This document shows positions 1,841-57,454 of a stretch of 64,000 nucleotides of DNA, piece by piece. The notes under the pieces are model-generated. The model was given only the letters and a program-made list of their open reading frames with translations, was not told the origin of the DNA and did not search any database. Position numbers and translations under genes: made by a program. Numbering within the stretch: position 1 is the first letter of the stretch; each line of letters begins with the position of its first letter. The stretch is from Brachionus plicatilis (taxonomy: Eukaryota > Rotifera > Eurotatoria > Ploima > Brachionidae). The stretch is taken from NCBI GenBank assembly GCA_010279815.1, contig QEOQ01000519.1:999002-1063001 (forward strand), in the 5' to 3' direction.

Positions 1841-3324
1841 CAGTACTGCTACGAAAAACTGTTTTTACGTGAAATTACGTAATTTCCAGTAATTTTACGT
1901 AATTTCACGTAAAATTACCAAAGTAAAAAAAGTAAATTTACCGGATTTTACGTAATTTTACGTAAAATTACCGGAAATTACGTAATTTTACTTAAAAAGT
2001 AAAATTCCAAAAAATACTACTTTCTTTGAGAATTTTGGCATTTTTTGACTTTTTTTAAATTTTTTGGTCCTGAATGCGAAAAAAAAAATTACTTTTATTC
2101 ACGTAATTTTACGTGAAATATTATTTAATAGTGGTAAATTTTTGTAATTTTTAGTAAAAAAAAGTAAAAAAAAGTAAAAATTAAGCTTTTTTTTTCAATT
2201 AAAATATTTACTTTTTATTTCCTCCATTTCATTATGAAATTTTTATTCATAAAACCGTAGAGTCTGACATTTGTCATTTACAAATCTCTTCATTATTTCA
2301 CTTCTGAGACGATTTGTAAATGGCTTATTATTGACTTAATTTTTTTTTTTATTTTTTAAAAATAATATATTTAAAACTTAAATATAAGAATACTAATGGT
2401 TTCAATAGCTTTCACTGGAACTACTATAAGTTCTTTCGGCCTTTCTTTTGGTTCCTGGTGTAAAGAAAGAACTGTCAGTTTCACCCCCAATAATTAATTT
2501 TTTAATGGCTTCATTTTCGCTATTAAGTTTCGAAACATTTGTGTTTAGCTTATTAATGTGTTCATTCATTGTAAATAAAGTTTGTTCTAAAGATGCACGG
2601 TTTGATGACTTTATCTCATTCAAGAGCTTATATTAGTCAATATTAAATTATATTTTTACTTTACTCGAGAAACAAAAAACGTCGAACAAAACGTCAAAAA
2701 ATACGTGATTGTTTTCATGAGCATTTACACCATAAATTTAAAAAAACCTGAAAAAAATTTAAATTTTTTTAATTTTTGCGGTTTATTGCGTTTAATGGTG
2801 TTAAAGCGAATGATAGCAATCATGAAGTTATGGTTTTTTGTTTTCAATTAAATCTTTAAAAAAAATTTAATAAAAATTAAGGTAATAAAAGTGGTTATAG
2901 AAATAAATGGAGATTGATCGAATCATTGAATTGTATTGAGATGTATCTAATTGAAAATTTTGTTTTTGCATTTTTGTTTATTGTTTATAATTAACTTATT
3001 TAAAATTTGTACAAAATTTACTTTTTTTTACTAAAAATTACAAAAATTTACCACTATTAAATAATATTTCACGTAAAATTACGTGAATAAAAGTAATTTT
3101 TTTTTTCGCATTCAGGACCAAAAAATTTAAAAAAAGTCAAAAAATGCCAAAATTCTCAAAAAAAGTAGTATTTTTTGGAATTTTACTTTTTACGTAAAAT
3201 TACGTAAAATCCGGTAAATTTACTTTTTTTACTTTGGTAATTTTACGTAATTTTACGTGAAATTACGTAAAATTACTGGAAATTACGTAATTTCACGTAA
3301 AAACAGTTTTTCGTAGCAGTACTG
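1841..3324. mobile_element. TA-flanked foldback DNA transposon with long ACGT-phased inverted ends
   Basis: The two ends are long inverted copies of each other: about 1841-2175 and 3005-3324. Both start CAGTACTGCTACGAAAAAC and are flanked by TA (1839-1840, 3325-3326), as expected of a Tc1/mariner-type TA target duplication. Within the arms the tetramer ACGT recurs about every 10 bp. Inner inverted repeats also occur (CATTTACAAATCTC near 2270 against its complement near 2320; a second pair near 2700 and 2810). The interior carries one small minus-strand ORF but no recognisable transposase, so the copy is probably non-autonomous. Relatives: 15795-15944, 54092-54875, about 52890-53138. Confidence 0.85.
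2402..2623 (-). CDS. Small coiled-coil ORF inside the foldback element
   Basis: A 73-codon ORF with an ATG start lies in the centre of the 1841-3324 element. Residues about 10-45 have leucine/isoleucine/valine spacing compatible with a coiled coil (HINKLNTNVSKLNSENEAIK), followed by a basic stretch TKRKAER and a serine-rich tail. No catalytic motif is visible and I do not recognise the family. It could be the remnant of a DNA-binding or oligomerisation domain of the element's lost protein, a captured exon, or chance. An intron-containing continuation cannot be excluded. Confidence 0.3.
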   Translation of the reverse strand: MNEIKSSNRASLEQTLFTMNEHINKLNTNVSKLNSENEAIKKLIIGGETDSSFFTPGTKRKAERTYSSSSESY

Positions 3325-4685: not shown

Positions 4686-4987
4686 GTAATATCTTGAAGT
4701 TTAGGATCAAAAAAATCAGATCAAATATTATTTATTTTATATATTTTCAATAATATTTGATTAAATCTCTCTACAAAATGCAAAATAATGCAGCAAACAT
4801 ACTAAATTGTAGATGAAGCTCTGAAAATAATCTTCATTTTTCAGTAAAATGCCCGTCATTAAAAAGTATTCAACTGCGAAATTTAATTGCAGAATTTTTG
4901 CGGAGTCTCATCAAATATTGTTCGAAAAATTCTACTTTTTTTACCAGCATTTTTGTTGAAATAAATAGTTTTACTTGAAATAACTAA

Positions 4988-5449
4988 TATTACGTAATAT
5001 TACATCATTTTACGTAAGCTAACATTTTAATACATCCTAATTTTGTATTTAATTTTCAGAGTTGTTTAAAAGTCCCAAAAAAAGTCTGAGTCCGGAATTT
5101 TTTTATCAAAAAATTGATATAATTCTTACTTTATATTTTAATAACAATTATTGTACAATTAGATTTAATTCTCAAATCAATAATTTTTAATCAATAAAAC
5201 GTTTGAAACTCATAATCTTGGGTTGTCTAATACAATAGATTTACCATATATTAGAATTTTGTTGCAATTTTAGCATAAATTTCTTCTTCAGTATTCAAAA
5301 TTTTAAAGCCCGGAGTAGGACTTTAAAAAAAAAAATTAAAATTCTGGACTTGGACTTGACTTGAGACTTATGACTTTTAAACAACTCTGGTAATTTTATA
5401 TAATCTTACATTTTTTGATGTAAAATTACGTAAAATGATGTAATATAAC
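4988..5449. mobile_element. Relic of an ACGT-phased foldback element, split by a hAT MITE
   Basis: The segment at about 4990-5015 (ACGTAATATT, ACATCATTTT, ACGTAAGC in 10-bp steps) is the inverted complement of about 5424-5449 (ACGTAAAATGATGTAATAT). The two arms are separated almost exactly by the hAT-type MITE at 5057-5389, so the MITE appears to have landed in the loop of an older foldback copy. Confidence 0.6.
5057..5389. mobile_element. hAT-type MITE, copy 1
   Basis: Ends are CAGAGTTGTTTAAAAGTC and its inverse GACTTTTAAACAACTCTG. The 8-bp flanks TTAATTTT (5049-5056) and GTAATTTT (5390-5397) match at 7 of 8. The interior shares GGGTTGTCTAATACAATAG and CTTCTTCAGTATTCAAAAT with copies at 40072-40357 and 44490-44788. 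CAG-starting inverted ends with 8-bp duplications are the hAT signature. No transposase. Confidence 0.85.
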
Positions 5450-6743
5450 CCGTTTTGCTGTTTAAAAGAAAACATTGTACAAGTATACAAGTTGCCAAAA
5501 AAATTCTAAGGTTTACTGCAAAAATTAAATCTCTATAAAAGAGGAAAAATAACCCCATTTTTTAAATTTCTTTAAGGTTTGGAATTCTAAAAGGAAAAAA
5601 TCATAAAATGAATAAAAAAACAATTTGATTAAATTCTTTTCTAAAACTTTTTTAAAAATAAAATTCTTAAAAAAATGTACAAATTTAATCTTGTTCAGAA
5701 TTTTTCACTAACAATATCCCTAAAGCACACTGAAAGAACGGACCTCAACAGAATTGATGAATACAAAACAGAAAATGTAAAGGAATGAAAAAAATTTTAA
5801 ACATGATAGCTTAATTTTTTTACTAGATTAAAAAATCCTTTCGAAACAGAAACAAAAATTTCTGATATTGTCGCAATTGGTCGGAATCCAGTTTAAAAAG
5901 TGTCAAAAGGGTTAAAAATAAATAAAATTTTTTTTAATTCTATCAGTGATTTTGTATTATATTCTGTTATTTGTATATTATGTATTTTTAAAGTAAAATA
6001 TCTGTAAATTATAAAAAAAATAATTTAGTTTTTTAATCTTAATTGACTTCTAAAGACAAAAAATATTATAAAAAATATATGTATATCAAAGCTCTTACAT
6101 TAAAGAAAGAGTTAATATCACATATCAATTTGAAAAAGAATCTTCATTAACAAATGAGTAAACCAGTGAGTCATACTATTAGGTACTAATCTGGAAATTT
6201 AGTTTAGTTTCAGTCTTATATAAGTTAATATTTTTTTTGCAGCTAATTTTTAATTTCGGCTATAAACCATTTAGAAAAAATATTTTAGTGAATCTAGAAT
6301 AAATGGAAATTTGAATATTTTTCAGGAATTTTTTTTTTCGAAAAAGTAACCTAGAAAATTAAAAAAAAAAATTATGACATAAATTTTAGTCGTTATATAA
6401 CATGATTTTACCTTTATGTAAATTAGATTGTTATTTTGAGCTGAAAATTTTTTAGATTTTTAAGGCGAAATTTTTTAAATGAAATTTTGTAAATTTCTTA
6501 ACTAATTAAAAAAAATAAACAATTTTTTATCATTTTGAATTTTTTGAGTGTTTAAATAAAATCAATTTTTAATTAACAAAACTGTGTTTCAAGCGAACTA
6601 ACATTAATATCGTGACCATATTTTATTTTTTATATTTAAACAAAATCGCTTAACAGTTTACTACTCTACATTGATAAAAATAAAATGTTTAACATTATTC
6701 ATATTGAAGAAAAAAGGAAATTTTTCTTGTTTGAAATATTTTT
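5450..6743. other. AT-rich intergenic stretch
   Basis: Homopolymer-rich sequence with no sustained reading frame and no repeat that I could match elsewhere in the window. Confidence 0.5.
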
Positions 6744-12199: not shown

Positions 12200-12310
12200 A
12201 ACATTAGTTTACGTTTGACCGCGTAAAATAAAATTTTTTACGTAATATACTGTAAAGCAAACTTATGTAAACTTACGTAAAATAAAGTCAAATCCTCGTA
12301 ACAAATCAGT
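12200..12310. mobile_element. Relic of an ACGT-phased element
   Basis: Contains ATGTAAACTT followed 10 bp later by ACGTAAAATA, and the end-like string CAGTACTGTATAT at about 12306. Heavily decayed; identified by resemblance to the element at 1841-3324. Confidence 0.4.
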
Positions 12311-13671
12311 ACTGTATATAAAATTTATCTTATTTTTTGTAATCTTTTTCTCTTACTTTCTTATTCTAACGAAAAAATTGCATTTTATATTCAGTATTGA
12401 TTTGTCACAAGGATTTCGGTAAAATGTTTGTGGCATTCATTGAGGCTGTTGGAAATTTAATTTTAAAAGGGCTTTTAAATTAGAATTTGATAATTCGTTC
12501 ATATAACCAATCTAATATTTACCTTTGTTAATTATTATTATTATTCATATCATATTAATATTATTACACCTGCCATGGCGATGTTTTAAAAAGAAGATTA
12601 AAATTAAAAATAAAAATAATTTAATTCGAAAAAATTAAAAATAATCTTTGTCAAAACTAATGAATTCAAATCGTATTATGTGGTCTGGAATTAGATAAAA
12701 AAATTGTTAAGGGCTAAAATAATTGAAAATGGAGTAATCACGGTTATAACAAATTTTGAATTTCAAAAAAAGCTAACACCTTAAAAATGGCAATCATAAA
12801 TAAATCATTTAAAAAAGGTTGGCTGTACCTAAAACACGGAACGCAATTAAGTAATGCTGAAATGGAATAGAATGAGAACCTAAAATTCGGAACGAGTGCT
12901 ACAGAACAAACTAAAATATGGAATATTTTTCTTTGGAATTAGGTGATCTTTTTCAACTTGGTTTAACATCCTAAAATCTTAATAATAAGTCCAATACCAA
13001 AATTTTTTTATCTTCAAACAAGCAATGTGAAAATATTTATCACAATTGTCACAATCAATTGATGGTGTGCTACAATAAGATATAAACTTGAGATAAATTT
13101 ATTTATAAAAATCTAAAGCCTCTTTAGAATAAAAATATAAAATCAAAATATAGTTAAATAAAATAATAAAAAGGTTAAAATATAGAAGCAAATTAAACAA
13201 TAAATATATTTGATTTAAAAACAAAATATTTCAAAAATTATTAAATATTTAACTTTTCAGGAAAAAAGAAGAAATTAAAGGAAAATAATTACACAATGTT
13301 GTCAAAAGCTCGATTAATTTTGATTGGAATTTGGTATTTTTATCTTTCACCAGTCTGAAATCAAATAGAGAATAATAATCAATTAGATCGAGATTACGAC
13401 TAAACGTTACATAAAGTTAAATAAACTTCCTTTTTTTAAGGTTTTTAGACCCCTTTTATTTGAAGACAAAGTTGAAATCAATTTCTCATTTTTTTTTGTT
13501 CAAAATTAATTTTTTTTCCAAAAAATGTCTGCTTGAGAGTGAATTTTTTCACTTTTTATTAATAAAGTTTCAACTCAAATGTCAACTGCTTGAATTTTTT
13601 CATTCATTGATTTAAATTCTTATCTTTTTAGAGTGCTTGAGAAATTAATATTGATGACTAATTATTCTTTT

Positions 13672-15507: not shown

Positions 15508-15794
15508 CTTTTTAAACTAATTAACTACTATTAATCAATATATTATTATTGAACAATTCGAATAAAAAATCAATTCCTGTCTTCTTAATTTATTTGAGAG
15601 TCAAAACTTACACTCCACCCAACCTCATATACAAATCTGTAAACATGGCGAAGATTTTTTTTACAATACAGCCATTATAAAAAAAATATTTATTTTTATA
15701 AATCTAAAAAAAGTAAAAATATATTTTAATTTTTAATGCAGTTTTTATTTTATATCAGAAATTTATTTATAACAAAAGCTGCGTAAAATATATA

Positions 15795-15944
15795 CAGTAG
15801 CGCTACGCCACGTGGATTTTACGTAAATTTACGTCAAATTACGTTAATTTACGTAATTTTACTATTCTATCTTTACGTAAAATTACGTAAATTAACGTAA
15901 TTTGACGTAAATTTACGTAAAATCCACATGGCGTAGCGCTACTG
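15795..15944. mobile_element. Near-perfect palindromic ACGT-phased MITE
   Basis: A 150-bp foldback with arms of about 68 bp. It starts CAGTAGCGCTACGCCACGTG, ends with the complement, and is flanked by TA on both sides (15793-15794, 15945-15946). Only one mismatch was noticed in the outer arms (CACGTGG against CACATGG). ACGT occurs at strict 10-bp intervals along each arm. This is the cleanest member of the superfamily that includes 1841-3324. Confidence 0.9.
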
Positions 15945-16965
15945 TATATGTTAAAATATTAAAGCATTCAAGCTAATCAGCTGCCTAATTGTGCCTGACA
16001 ATAAACTGACTTTTTGCCTAGCACAGCTAAAATTACTTCTACTGCTTTTAATAATTCTTTAAAAAAAGATCATGTCCTTCAATTAAAAAAAATGGAAACT
16101 TTATTTATTTGACACCCTTTCAAAGTGATAAAAAATAATGATGCTAAGAAAAATTCTTGATTAAAAATGTAAGAATTTAGAATTTTAAAAACAAAGAGTT
16201 GCAAAAAATTTGAACTTTGGATCGTACAGTCCGGCGACATTTTTCTGATTCGCTATGAAATTAAAAACAAAAAGACTATGCTCCTTGCCATGATGGTATT
16301 TTTTGGTAAAATTATAAAATATAATAATTTTTAAACAATATTTTAAGTTAGCTTCTTCTACTTTGAAACTTTTCACTTCAAAATACAACACAATGTTTGG
16401 AAATTTTTATAATAAAGCGAGTTAAATCTCGCATTCATGCAAACAGCTTGAAAAAATTTCACATATATTCTTCATCGGAGAGTTAACGTGGTTTATCCAG
16501 TTATTTCCGGGATCAGGAAATAAAGATATATTGAAATATCTAAATAGGAAATATGATAGAACTCATCAAGCGATACAAAAAAATCCCAAAATTTAATATT
16601 TATTTAAACAAAATTTCAATTTTTTGAAAAGCTCGATTAAGACTTTAATTTTTTGTCCAAGTTGATTGATCATAGTTTTTGATTATGTCACTCATTATTG
16701 TTTTAGTTTTGTCGGTAAAATATTTTTTATATTCTAAAAAAATTTTTTTGCAACCAAAAAACTAATTTGAAAAATTAGAAAAAAAAATTTTTCAAATTTA
16801 ATGAACCAATAGATTAATAAATCTAAAAAAAAATTAATTTGTCAGATTTATCAATATTTTAAGAATCTGAAATAAGAAATTTATTTAAAATTCAAAATTG
16901 CAAAGCTTTTTTTTCATTAAAAGTGTATTACGAGATATTGATAATCAAATAAAATACAATTAAAT

Positions 16966-41720: not shown

Positions 41721-42005
41721 TCGATGCAATCATGGAACTTGAAATTTAACAAAAACAAAAATAAAAATCAAAAGATATTTTTTTTTTATCAATAAATTCT
41801 AATTAGAATGAATTTTTTTATCAAAAGAAAAACATATCGTTTGATACGTTTTATTTTCAGTTAAAAAATCAAAAATAAATTTTATTTTAAGTCAATCTTA
41901 TTTATTTTATCAAAAATTTTGATTTAGATTGCTTATATCTGCTATAATACAGAGGCAAAAACAAAAAATATTAAACGATTGATAAAAGATTAATTTGATA
42001 CTAGA

Positions 42006-43060
42006 AATATTAAAAAAACATGTGCACTTAATATGTTTATCCCTTCAAATAAGATCATCATCACAGACAAGGTAAGCATATGCAGTACATTAAATGAATT
42101 TTTCCATTCTGTTTTTGATAAACCGACTCCGTTGGCAATTATCAACCATGCAAAGGAAACTTTTCAAACACGATCACAACCTTGTCCTGGTTTCCGAGTT
42201 GAAGACCTAGTTACACCTGACACGGTACTTTCCAAGCTTAACAGACTTTGCAGCGACAAAACTACTGGAGTTGATCAAGAAGCTACACACCCCCTCAAAA
42301 TGTGTGCAGAAGCCCTTTGCGGCCCTTTATCAGATCTTTATGTTCAATCATTGACTCTTTAGGCTGTCCCGAAAGAGTGGAAAGAGGCAAATGTGTCGCC
42401 TATCTTCAAAAAAGGTAGTAGAATGGAATTACCGTCCGGTCTCGCTTACCTCTGTTCCTTGCAAAGTATTGGAATCGATCATCAAGGACTATATTGTCAA
42501 GCATCTGATTAAGAATAATCTTCTCTCGAAAAAACATCATGCACAGGTTCCTGAGCCTAATAATTTATTTATGGCTTCGTTCCTAAAAAGGCTTGTGTTA
42601 CCAATTTACTTGAAACTGTTGACTTTTTGAGTGACGCAATGAGTCGAAAGGTACCTACTGGTGTAATATACCTTGACTTTGCGAAAGCATTTGACAAGGT
42701 TTCACATGAACTACTCCTGGTAAAATTAGCTGCTTATGGTATTCCAGTTCTTATAGTTAATTGGATTCGCTCCTTCCTATCAGGCTGGAAGCAACGAGTC
42801 GTTATTGGTAGCGTTGTTTCCGATTGGAAGCCAGTTACTAGCGGAGTACCTCAAGGATCCGTTCTTGGTCCTCTTCTCTTCGTTATATATGTCAATGACT
42901 TGCCTGATGTATGCAGATCTATCTGCAAGCTTTATGCAGATGATACAAAGCTAATAAGCCATGTGACCAATGAGGATGACTTCAAAATGCTTCAACACGA
43001 CCTCGATAATTTAGTAGACTGGTCATTGTACTGGAAAATGAGCTTTAATCAGATTAAGTG
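42006..43060 (+). pseudogene. Decayed LINE reverse transcriptase, same family as 1-1550
   Basis: Reading across frames gives the linker and RT of a Jockey/CR1-like element: FRVEDLVTPDTVLSKLNRL, VPKEWKEANVSPIFKKGSR, NYRPVSLTSVPCKVLES, then an open block at 42627-43085 with GVIYLDFAKAFDKVSHE, SGVPQGSVLGPLLFVIYVND and LYADDTKL (catalytic YADD). Breaks: a TAG at 42361-42363, frameshifts near 42415 and 42560, and loss of everything after FNQIKC at about 43060. The 5' end is also missing. The open block is better preserved than the 1-1384 copy, so this insertion is younger. No 3' tail, so the end was deleted after insertion. Confidence 0.9.
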
Positions 43061-43395
43061 TTTGCTAAAAATCACTTATTTATAAAAAATTAAATAAAGA
43101 TTTTTTTTTGTTAAAAATTACTTTTATTAAAATCAGTCTGAAATTTGTCTAATAAAATTTGATTAATTGGAAAAATTTTCAATTGACAAATTTTGTTCAG
43201 TAAATATATTTCTGTTTGCTTGTTTTTAATAAATAAAATATAAATGATTAATAACATTAAAATCCATAAAATATTTCATTTAAAATATAAATTCTTCATT
43301 ATGATTCTTAATTACAAAGATGGAATTGTTTTCTATATGAATAATATTTATTCGCTAATATTTTAAATTTAAAAGAAAATTTTCTGAAAAAATTT

Positions 43396-43503
43396 GACAG
43401 CAGTGGGATTTGAACCCACGCCAGTATACACTGACCAGAACACACTTTGTAAGTTATATTTCAAACTTGAGTCTGGCGCCTTAGACCACTCGGCCATACT
43501 GTC
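43396..43503 (-). tRNA. tRNA-Leu(CAA) with a 25-nt intron
   Basis: On the minus strand: acceptor GACAGTA pairs with TGCTGTC; A box TGGCCGAGTGG; anticodon stem CCAGA / TCTGG around CTCAAGT with anticodon CAA; long variable arm as in Leu tRNAs; B box GGGTTCAAATCCC. A 25-nt intron (43441-43465) sits one base 3' of the anticodon, the standard place. A body of 83 nt remains after splicing. It lies about 130 bp downstream of the 188-residue ORF, same strand. Appears functional. Confidence 0.95.
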
Positions 43504-52889: not shown

Positions 52890-53138
52890 TGTGTTTTTTT
52901 TAACGATTTGTTTTACTAAAATTTAGTAAAATTTACCATTTTTCCCGTTTTTTATGATAAAAATTTACGTAAAATTGCGTAAAATTTCGTAATTTTATTT
53001 TTTCAATTTTCATTTTAATTTTCAAAAAAAATGAAAAAAATTCCTAAAAATCGCCATTTTTTTATTTTTTTGTTTGCCCTTTTTATGTTTACTAAAATTT
53101 TCGTAAAATTACGTAAAAAAAGTTTATCATAGCAGTAA
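52890..53138. mobile_element. Worn ACGT-phased element truncating a small gene
   Basis: Inverted arms carry ACGTAAAATT, GCGTAAAATT, TCGTAATTTT in 10-bp steps (52968-53000) and TCGTAAAATT, ACGTAAAA at 53100-53118. The right end, inverted, reads CTGCTATGATAAACTTTTTT, like the CAGTACTGCTACG ends at 1841. It joins directly to the first exon of the duplicated minus-strand gene. Confidence 0.6.
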
Positions 53139-54091: not shown

Positions 54092-54875
54092 TAACTGATC
54101 AAGTAGCATGACAAGTGGATTTCTGGTAATTTTACGTTAATTTACGTAAAAAATAGTAAAACTGAAAAGGCCAAAAAAAGCTCAATCTTTGAATTTTTTA
54201 TTATTTTTTAATAAACTTTGAAAAAATTAGTTCCTATTTATATGTTTATATTTTCATGGATAGACAATGAATTTAAATAATTAAAAAAACGTTTTCCTTT
54301 CTGTACTTTTTGTACTTTTTCTAATTTATTTATTTGGCCCTGTTACTTTTTGTACTTTCTGTACTTTTTGTACTTTTTCTAATTAATTTATTTGGCCGTT
54401 TTACTTTCTGTACTTTTTATACTTTATCAATATTTTAATTATCAAATTAAATTTAACGGGGTCCGGGGCGGAGCCCTGGTTTAGGGATTCGGGTATGTAA
54501 AAGATAAGAGAAATTTTAGTTAAAATAAAATTAATAATTAAAATTTTAATTTTTTGTAATGTTTTTTTTTTAATTGGATAAAGTACAGAAAGTACAAAAA
54601 GTAACAGGGCCAAATAAAATAATTAGAAAAAGTACAAAAAGTACAGAAAGTACAAAAAGTAAAAAAAGGATTTACTTTTAAATATTTTCATTGTCTATAC
54701 CTCTATATTTTACCAATAGTTACTTCTTATTTCTTATTTACTAATTTTTACGTAAATTTAGGAAAAAATGGAAAATAATAAAAAATTCAAAAAATTGAGC
54801 TTTTTTTTGGCCTTTTAATTTTTACTAATTTCTACGTGAAATTACCAGAAATCCACTTTTCAAATCGGCACTGTA
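54092..54875. mobile_element. ACGT-phased foldback element nested in the Mutator-type element
   Basis: Left arm AGTGGATTTCTGGTAATTTT (from 54113) and right arm, inverted, the same words up to CACTGTA at 54869-54875. TA is at the right end; the left end is worn. ACGTTAATTT and ACGTAAAA are 10 bp apart. It encloses another inverted pair made of GTACTTTTT units (about 54300-54420 and 54575-54665) around a GC-rich hairpin at 54463-54479. Confidence 0.7.
54300..54665. repeat. Inverted arrays of GTACTTTTT units with a GC-rich centre
   Basis: Left array: ACTTTTTGTACTTTTTCTAA and GGCCCTGTTAC words. The right array is their complement (AAAGTACAGAAAGTAC, GTAACAGGGCC). The centre carries CCGGGGCGGAGCCCTGG at 54463-54479, a 7-bp stem with a GGA loop in otherwise A/T sequence. 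A minus-strand ORF across it (54401-54613) has no support. Confidence 0.7.
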
Positions 54876-56371: not shown

Positions 56372-57454
56372 TAGTGTTGGCAATCGACTCCAATCGATTG
56401 ACAAATTTAATAAATCGATTAATTTTTTTTAGTCGATTATTAAATCGATTAATTTTTTTTAGTCGATTATTAAATCGATTAATTTTTTTTAGTCGATTAT
56501 TTAATCGATTAATTTTTATTAGTCGACTATTAAATCGATTATTTTTTTTTAGTCGACTATTTAATCGATTATTTTTTTTTAGTCGACTATTTAATCGATT
56601 ATTTTTTTTTAGTCGACTATTTAATCGATTAATTTTTTTTAGTCGATTATTAAATCGATTAATTTTTTTTAGTCGACTATTAAATCGATTATTTTTTTTT
56701 AGTCGACTATTAAATCGATTAAATTTTTTTAGTCGATTTTTAAATCGATTATTATTTTTTAGTCGACTATTTAATCGATTAATTTTTTTTAGTCGACTAT
56801 TAAATCGATTAATTTTTTTAAGTCGACTATTAAATCGACTCAATTTTTTTAATCGACTATTAAATCGATTAAATTTTTTCAGTTGACTATTAAATCGACC
56901 AATTTTTTTTAGTCGATTATTATTTTAGTCGACTATTAAATCGAATTATTTTTTCTAGATGACTATAATACTTCTAATTTATCTCGAAATTAAAATTTAG
57001 GAGGGAAAAAAATATTATTTTTTAATAAAAAAGGTTTTTAATTGATTTAAAATTATAGATTTAAAGCAAAATAAAAATAATTCGATTTAAAAGTCGACTA
57101 AAATAATAATCGACTAAAAAAAATAAATCGATTTAATAATCGACTAAAAAAAATTAATCGATTTAATAATCGACTAAAAAAAATTAATCGATTTAATAAT
57201 CGATTAAAAAAATTTAATCGATTTAATAATCGACTAATAAAAATTAATCGATTAAATAATCGATTAAAAAAAATTAATCGATTTAATAATCGACTAAAAA
57301 AATTTAATTGATTAAATAATCGACTAAAAAAATTTAATTGATTAAATAATCGACTAAAATAATTTAATTGATTAAATAATCGATTAAAAAAAAATAGTCG
57401 ATTTAAAGTTAGTCGATTATTGAATCGATTATTGATAATCGATTGCCAACACTA
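56372..57454. mobile_element. hAT element built of opposed 30-bp tandem arrays
   Basis: Perfect 8-bp target duplication ATTAAAAA (56364-56371, 57455-57462). Ends TAGTGTTGGCAATCGA and, inverted, the same, of hAT type. The left arm (to about 56960) is about 18 copies of a 30-bp unit containing TCGATTAATTTTTTTTAGTC; the right arm (about 57065-57440) is about 12 copies in inverse orientation. A short non-repetitive centre separates them. Because the unit is a multiple of three, both strands stay open for about 165 codons; these frames are artefacts. The paralogous site at about 61540 lacks the element. Confidence 0.9.

Follow-up and report, generated by a model that had tools for sequence, protein, structure and literature searches.

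The element at positions 15795-15944 of the window (the whole stretch of DNA that was analysed, 64,000 nucleotides) carries the tetramer ACGT in both arms, and this raises the question of which transposons such ends belong to and what might bind them. A sequence-only reading had described it as a TA-flanked foldback element with near-perfect arms and a long hairpin. This was borne out, as 67 of 68 arm positions are paired in a single predicted hairpin, the energy of which (single strand) is -75.5 kcal/mol (z -21.6), with none of 200 shuffles being equally stable. The element contains ten ACGT, spaced by 11, 10, 10, 10, 24, 10, 10, 10 and 10 bp, such that eight of the nine gaps are 10 or 11 bp. 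Being short and non-coding, with inverted repeats shared with a coding parent and with many copies, it is a MITE; the genome holds 118 matches to the stretch, many places being counted on both strands. It should be noted that no complete parent of this subfamily was among the places read, and that at one place (C78) a single tip of the same AGC type lies together with exons of a transposase and part of the second gene described below. The coordinates of all features are given in Table 1.

Table 1. Elements, arms and relics of the window, and the complete two-gene copies of the genome
Feature	Position	Strand	Length	Remarks
TA-flanked non-autonomous element (MITE), CAGTAGCGCTACG subfamily	15795..15944	.	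150 bp	ACGT array in both arms
TA flanks of the 150-bp MITE	15793-15794 and 15945-15946			
Left arm of the MITE	15795..15862	+		tip CAGTAGCGCTACG; ACGT at 16, 27, 37, 47, 57 from tip
Right arm of the MITE	15877..15944	-		inverted copy of left arm
Internally deleted copy, CAGTACTGCTACG subfamily	1841..3324	.		parent type G000:C40:299440-303417, 3978 bp
Left terminal inverted repeat	1841..2168	+	328 bp	ACGT at 27, 37, 57, 67, 110, 120, 140, 261, 271 from tip
Right terminal inverted repeat	3017..3324	-		91% to left over 328 aligned columns
Second-gene relic with introns	2165..2843	-		query 325-1003 = parent 3479-2768, 92%
Last transposase exon, relic	2882..2929	+		same exon present in C40 parent type
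Decayed copy, CAGT(A/G)CCGATTTG subfamily	54099..54873	.		clear right tip; degenerate left tip with approximate left edge
Relic with CAGTACTGATTTG end and TA flank	12200..12314	-		
Relic, degenerate tetramers	4988..5449	.		10-bp register for most
Relic, few sites	52890..53138	.		in register: left side 3/5, right side 2/4
Complete copy C40			3978 bp	left-arm inverted repeat 386 bp
Complete copy C2			3461 bp	left-arm inverted repeat 332 bp
Complete copy C27			3393 bp	left-arm inverted repeat 51 bp; two stops
Complete copy C4			3308 bp	left-arm inverted repeat 337 bp
Complete copy C59			3554 bp	left-arm inverted repeat 493 bp

To see how widespread such ends are, we counted ACGT spacings and element tips. 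Within the window, a distance of 10 bp separates 17 pairs of ACGT; 100 first-order Markov sequences gave a mean of 0.12 and a maximum of 1. The searched genome (102.9 Mb, 173 contigs) contains 658 sites of three ACGT at 10-bp spacing, overlapping triples being counted, with 53 in a reversed-letter control; at spacings of 9 and 11 bp only 2 sites each were found (controls 13 and 327). The claimed excess of 10-bp spacing in other copies is thus real. The 327 triple sites of the reversed control correspond to TGCA at 11-bp steps and belong to other repeats. With at most one mismatch allowed, TACAGTRNYGCTACG-class tips number 742 (reversed control 11) and TACAGTRNYGATTTG-class tips 1,658 (control 110). 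These counts cover two tip classes, a third being CAGTGGTGTTCCGG; the excess over control, about 2,280 tips, represents a large family in this rotifer genome. The flank is TA in 48 of 50 ends that were chosen by tip and array with TA not required, and TA is found on both sides of all five complete copies described below, as a candidate target duplication. One superfamily with common tips and TA flanks, as had been proposed, is supported.

The copies in the window show how the elements are related. The interiors had been taken to be unrelated, so that the ends would be what is conserved. This does not hold: the interior of the copy at 1841-3324 matches the complete parent-type copy C40 at 91-92% identity over 679 and 389 bases (blastn), where the 389-base, 91% match spans the last transposase exon and the inner arm, and both genes of the two-gene parent are conserved across subfamilies. 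The copy is thus an internal deletion derivative and not a pair of ends around foreign filling. The copy earlier placed at 54092-54875 really ends at 54873, with the different tip CAGTGCCGATTTG; four intact ACGT lie in the stretches checked (54134, 54144, 54750 and 54834), and its six best blastn pieces against the two-gene copy at C4 are 42-119 bp long and 84-98% identical. The end motif with TA flanks, thought to be shared by the clean copies, is indeed present at 1841, 3324, 15795 and 15944, but not at 54873. That the relics keep the 10-bp register although the tetramer has mutated is a weaker point. With one mismatch allowed, the sites in the commonest register, as raw counts without shuffles, are 5 of 6 at 4973-5032, 4 of 5 at 5408-5450, 3 of 5 at 52903-52987, 2 of 4 at 53085-53120 and 5 of 10 at 12201-12296, and the register evidence in the relics is weak. 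A second end of the relic at 12200-12314 was not found. The window elements, MITEs and larger, are deletion derivatives of a two-gene IS630-Tc1-mariner clade.

Other repeats and genes share the window with these elements. Two tandem arrays with a 30-bp unit (17 and 10 copies, 91% matches) form a large inverted pair at 56407-57406 and can fold back on each other, the open frames at 49-438 and 41994-43085 resemble, by eye, the reverse transcriptase of non-LTR retrotransposons, and a 109-base tRNA match lies at 43395-43503 on the minus strand, which, as it exceeds the length of a plain tRNA, perhaps contains an intron.

A DDE transposase partner had been suggested for these elements, and full-length copies with a DDE_3 transposase were indeed found. 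DDE_3 pieces lie within or next to several elements; Tc1-like transposase exons could be joined through GT-AG introns, the sites of which match in two subfamilies (C40 and C27). Five introns were spliced, and probably one more is present, giving a protein of about 340 residues. It matches DDE_3 of Pfam (E 4.2e-11, 43.3 bits, cut-off 28.6) and, below the cut-off of 31.5, HTH_Tnp_Tc3_2 (E 2.5e-5, 24.9 bits). The catalytic domain of Sleeping Beauty (5cr4) aligns with it at E 1.3e-15, ungapped from the second D to the E, with 34 residues between these two when counted by hand in C40 (DD34E). By their DDE_3 domain, DD34E spacing and TA flanks, the elements are identified as IS630-Tc1-mariner transposons and their deletion derivatives. 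The best named matches of the transposase are proteins of Brachionus plicatilis and B. calyciflorus, the two from B. calyciflorus being 50% and 64% identical over 72% and 54% of its length. In a quick tree of 61 rows, built without bootstrap, the five transposases and five Brachionus proteins form a group of ten (SH-aLRT 97) that excludes both fish Tc1 and two single-gene Tc1 elements found in this genome. Some copies are nearly identical to B. plicatilis proteins, which suggests that they reside in the genome of B. plicatilis or of a close relative. Two other candidates were set aside. DDE_1 (pogo/Tigger, PF03184) has 95 matches in the genome and was dropped, as the pieces inside the elements were DDE_3. 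A 453-residue open frame (C11:744557, L073) was considered as an autonomous partner, but lacks the aspartate at the first catalytic place and has no second gene or opposite tip within the 4 kb fetched. At 55% G+C in surroundings of 25%, it looks like a host-like gene related to the transposase, perhaps a domesticated one.

In addition to the transposase, the complete copies contain a second gene, which has introns and lies on the opposite strand, head to head with the transposase gene. Thirteen places were fetched for one gene or the other, and five of these yielded complete copies with both tips and both genes, 3.3-4.0 kb long and divergently arranged in all five. Long terminal inverted repeats of 332-493 bp are present in four of them, the fifth having 51 bp. 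Of the other eight fetched places, C11 holds the host-like open frame, C24, C26 and C72 have transposase parts with no second-gene match, C91 has second-gene parts with no transposase match, and C76, C12 and C78 have parts of both. A genome-wide search with the conserved part of the second gene gave 17 matches, which fall at 13 loci. Nine of these loci have a transposase match no farther than about 2 kb away and C91 has none (C87, C33 and C26:403236 were left out of this neighbourhood reading). For C2, C4, C27, C59 and C76, the second-gene models were assembled by eye out of tblastn pieces and open frames and have provisional splice borders; borders of the C40 model agree with the B. plicatilis protein P0121.

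Between the five complete copies, the transposases are 54-68% identical and the second proteins 29-46%. When one exon block of about 44 codons was compared, pS was 0.55-0.91 and pN 0.15-0.41 in 26 of 28 second-gene pairs, and most comparisons thus point to purifying selection. The two outliers are C59-C12, which are nearly identical, and C76-C91, which show little constraint (dN 0.65, dS 0.84). In 25 of the 28 second-gene pairs and 14 of the 15 transposase pairs, synonymous change either exceeds one per site or is undefined. All named relatives of the second protein come from B. plicatilis, 10 in one search and 16 in a profile search (E up to 10) that scored the 7,995 candidates sharing most words. 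A 5,619-base contig is listed for one of them, P0131, as well as for P0007, a transposase of this type from B. plicatilis, which suggests that both are annotated on one contig. B. calyciflorus yields transposase relatives, although protein searches found no second protein there. The N-terminus of the second protein is charged, and a long helix is predicted with low confidence. As no Pfam family matches it above the cut-off and the structure model of P0121 is poor (pLDDT 51.6), a DNA-binding role of the second protein is a guess. Five single-gene Tc1 copies of the same genome (L083, L084 and L090-L092, not a random sample) have neither an ACGT pair 10 bp apart nor a second-gene match. This links the array with the second gene, though it is no proof of binding. 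Three of these five copies have inverted repeats of 21-39 bp; none were found in the other two.

We then considered where the ACGT sites lie with respect to the tip. Counted from the terminal C, they are mostly at positions 27, 37, 47, 57, 67, 77 and 87. To avoid a bias towards the array, 32 ends were picked by tip with 200 clean bases required and, unlike in the companion set, with selection free of the array (L023-L052, the first 30 places of a long list, on contigs C1 and C2). Between positions 14 and 110 of these ends, 57 of 77 ACGT lie at 7 mod 10 from the tip, where 3.1 are expected; at least one in-register ACGT is present in 23 of the 32 ends, at least two in 15, and none in 9. The 10-bp register along the arms, which the sequence-only reading had noticed, is therefore sustained. 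When 20 clusters (89 ends) were given equal weight, half of them being single ends, 25.2 of 37.8 ACGT were in register. For eight representatives chosen by hand from these clusters, identity over positions 27-170 is 0.50 unshifted, 0.47-0.48 when displaced by +-10 bp, 45% by 20 and 44% by 30, as compared with 0.25-0.33 for displacements of 3-7. As identity is high at 10-bp shifts even though synonymous change is extensive in most pairs, the lattice is kept rather than a particular sequence. The unit is a palindrome, TTTACGTAAA, in the consensus of 223 units selected for intact ACGT. There are exceptions: the C2 subfamily is one base off, at 8 mod 10, several ends with GCT tips have one site or none, and the C27 copy has five intact ACGT across its two arms. 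Arms of C40, C2, C59 and the AGC type also have an isolated third group of 1-3 ACGT near 284-295 bp from the tip, at a nearly equal distance in several subfamilies and off the face of the outer lattice.

The lattice is interrupted once in many arms. The gap between the outer and inner blocks is often 24, 33, 34, 43 or 44 bp, a multiple of ten plus 3 or 4, although a gap of 24 bp in the short AGC MITEs can also be the centre of the element. In seven two-block arms, chosen for their inner block, which C27 and the GCT copy lack, this jump is located 67-97 bp from the tip. For sites at 27-181 bp in these arms, the best-fit period is 10.34-10.51 bp, and it becomes 10.00 in each after removal of the jump. 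The fit was typed by hand on 5-12 sites per arm without a shuffle test, used the right arm for C4 (where it is fuller) and C2, and left out the site at 16 and all sites beyond 181 bp, so that the innermost sites at 273-313 bp, which a hand calculation for C40 places on another face, were excluded. The helical pitch of DNA is about 10.4-10.5 bp. At a plain spacing of 10.0 bp, each site would thus be rotated by about 17 degrees relative to the one before it, which the jump compensates; the jump may have arisen once, as a single inherited event. The suggestion that all sites face one side of the helix is thereby sharpened, since it is the mean repeat with the jump included, 10.34-10.51 bp in the seven chosen arms, that fits the helix.

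Taken together, we favor a reading, with a probability of roughly 0.55, in which the parents are two-gene elements, the tip is the transposase site, and a dimer of the second protein on the one-face row of ACGT sites joins the arms. The transposase would recognize the tip, approximately the first 25 bp, while a putative homodimer would recognize each TTACGTAA site. With the sites in a row on one helical face, the dimer could cover the two arms and join them for excision, for which arm pairing by TnpA of En/Spm serves as a model. The likeliest binder would be the element's own second protein, which would pair or wrap the ends. As the MITEs keep the sites, they could be mobilized in trans.

Several other explanations should be weighed against this one. 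The helix-turn-helix domains at the N-terminus of the transposase might bind the array themselves, with the second protein employed otherwise, e.g., in regulation or in escape from silencing. In its favor, the array has a fixed register relative to the tip, at which the transposase has to work, and Tc1 relatives bind long, repeated ends. However, the tip block (positions 1-25) already has the size of a Tc1 transposase site, the motif of the array, a short palindrome, does not resemble the tip, and the five single-gene Tc1 copies do without an array; we consider this account unlikely. Rather less probable is that a host bZIP protein binds the arrays and that the element borrows it as an enhancer or architectural factor. 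While the consensus from the 223 units is TTTACGTAAA, and TTACGTAA is the consensus of PAR/E4BP4-type bZIP dimers, sites 10 bp apart seem too close for adjacent bZIP dimers, and nothing here ties any host bZIP to the elements.

The two remaining explanations require no dedicated binder. We consider it quite improbable that the lattice is a functionless by-product, i.e., a 10-bp tandem repeat that slips and is homogenized between arms and copies. Copies do differ in unit number by steps of 10, and recent copying or conversion is suggested by the identity between the arms of a single element, 85-99.7% in eleven copies. A 10-bp lattice would also be maintained by slippage in units of 10 bp, and this counts against a functional reading. 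On the other hand, ACGT keeps its distance from the tip in spite of the extensive synonymous change noted above, few sites lie in other phases, and the jump agrees with the pitch of the helix. Least probable, in our estimate, is a nucleosome-positioning or intrinsically curved sequence. A/T runs and ACGT alternate with a 10-bp period, such that A/T tracts and CG follow each other every 5 bp, the classical pattern of rotational positioning, and the 150-bp MITE is close in length to core nucleosomal DNA. For positioning, however, neither the ACGT tetramer nor a fixed register relative to the tip should be needed.

Tc1/mariner elements with a single gene are the textbook case of a minimal transposon, and a two-gene lineage with a tip-locked, helically corrected array would show how a minimal transposon gains an accessory protein. 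The lattice is, in addition, unusually regular, so that displacing sites by a few bases would be a direct test of helical-face assembly. The superfamily is known; the two-gene lineage and the architecture of its ends may be new. In titles and abstracts of the open literature (subscription journals, Repbase and Dfam lie outside this scope) on two-gene Tc1 elements, on rotifer Tc1 elements and MITEs, and on helically phased ends, we found no description of this lineage or its lattice. The available parts of Blommaert 2019 (PMC6555955) and Nowell 2021 (PMC7943196) name no such family, and those of PMC2872659 describe no such two-gene family or lattice.

Compared with known systems, the elements resemble the Tc1 family (DD34E) in their DDE_3 domain, DD34E spacing, TA flanks, CAGT tips and transposase of about 340 residues. 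Tc1 elements usually have one uninterrupted transposase gene and a length of 1.3-2.4 kb, although this is not strictly defining. By contrast, all five complete copies have two divergent genes and 3.3-4.0 kb, with the phased ACGT lattice, introns in C40 and C27 and, in all but one copy, repeats of 332-493 bp. The long inverted repeats of IR/DR elements of the Tc1 family, such as Sleeping Beauty and Bari3, likewise contain internal sites. In those elements the sites are two direct repeats, each about 30 bp long; here they are short palindromes, up to a dozen or more, on a 10-bp lattice, and no internal copy of the tip site was noticed by eye in the printed arms. We also compared the elements with En/Spm, in which TnpA and TnpD are transcripts of one gene, and with the VANDALs, which are another transposon group. 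As in En/Spm (CACTA, TnpA and TnpD), a transposase is accompanied by a second element protein, and in the available part of the source the second protein of En/Spm binds reiterated subterminal motifs of 12 bp (PMC2613891); the likeness to TnpA was drawn with Pfam as the sole sequence comparison. En/Spm belongs to another superfamily, with CACTA tips, a 3-bp duplication and the 12-bp motif (PMC2613891), while the tips here are CAGT and the flanks TA. Some pogo elements, also of the ITm group, have one or two ORFs and TIRs of 392-856 bp, and in this they are similar to our copies. Their transposase, however, is DDE_1 with DD29-56D instead of DDE_3 with DD34E, and no phased lattice is described in the available part of the source (PMC7386202). 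With VANDAL21, the elements share dense arrays of short motifs in non-coding DNA. Recognition of such arrays by an element-encoded protein, the anti-silencing VANC, is described for VANDAL21, where the motif YAGTATTAY stands in tandem repeats of one orientation; the available part of the source describes no lattice tied to the tip as found here (PMC5735166). A tentative reading, to which we give somewhat less than even odds, is that a Tc1/mariner lineage independently evolved a TnpA- or VANC-like system, in which a second, dimeric protein would be arranged in a row on the TTACGTAA lattice, on one face and in the manner of a ruler. If this analogy is true, 10-bp steps with one +3/+4 correction would align sites up to about 13 turns from the cleavage site, in an end-recognition machine that is exploited by MITEs.
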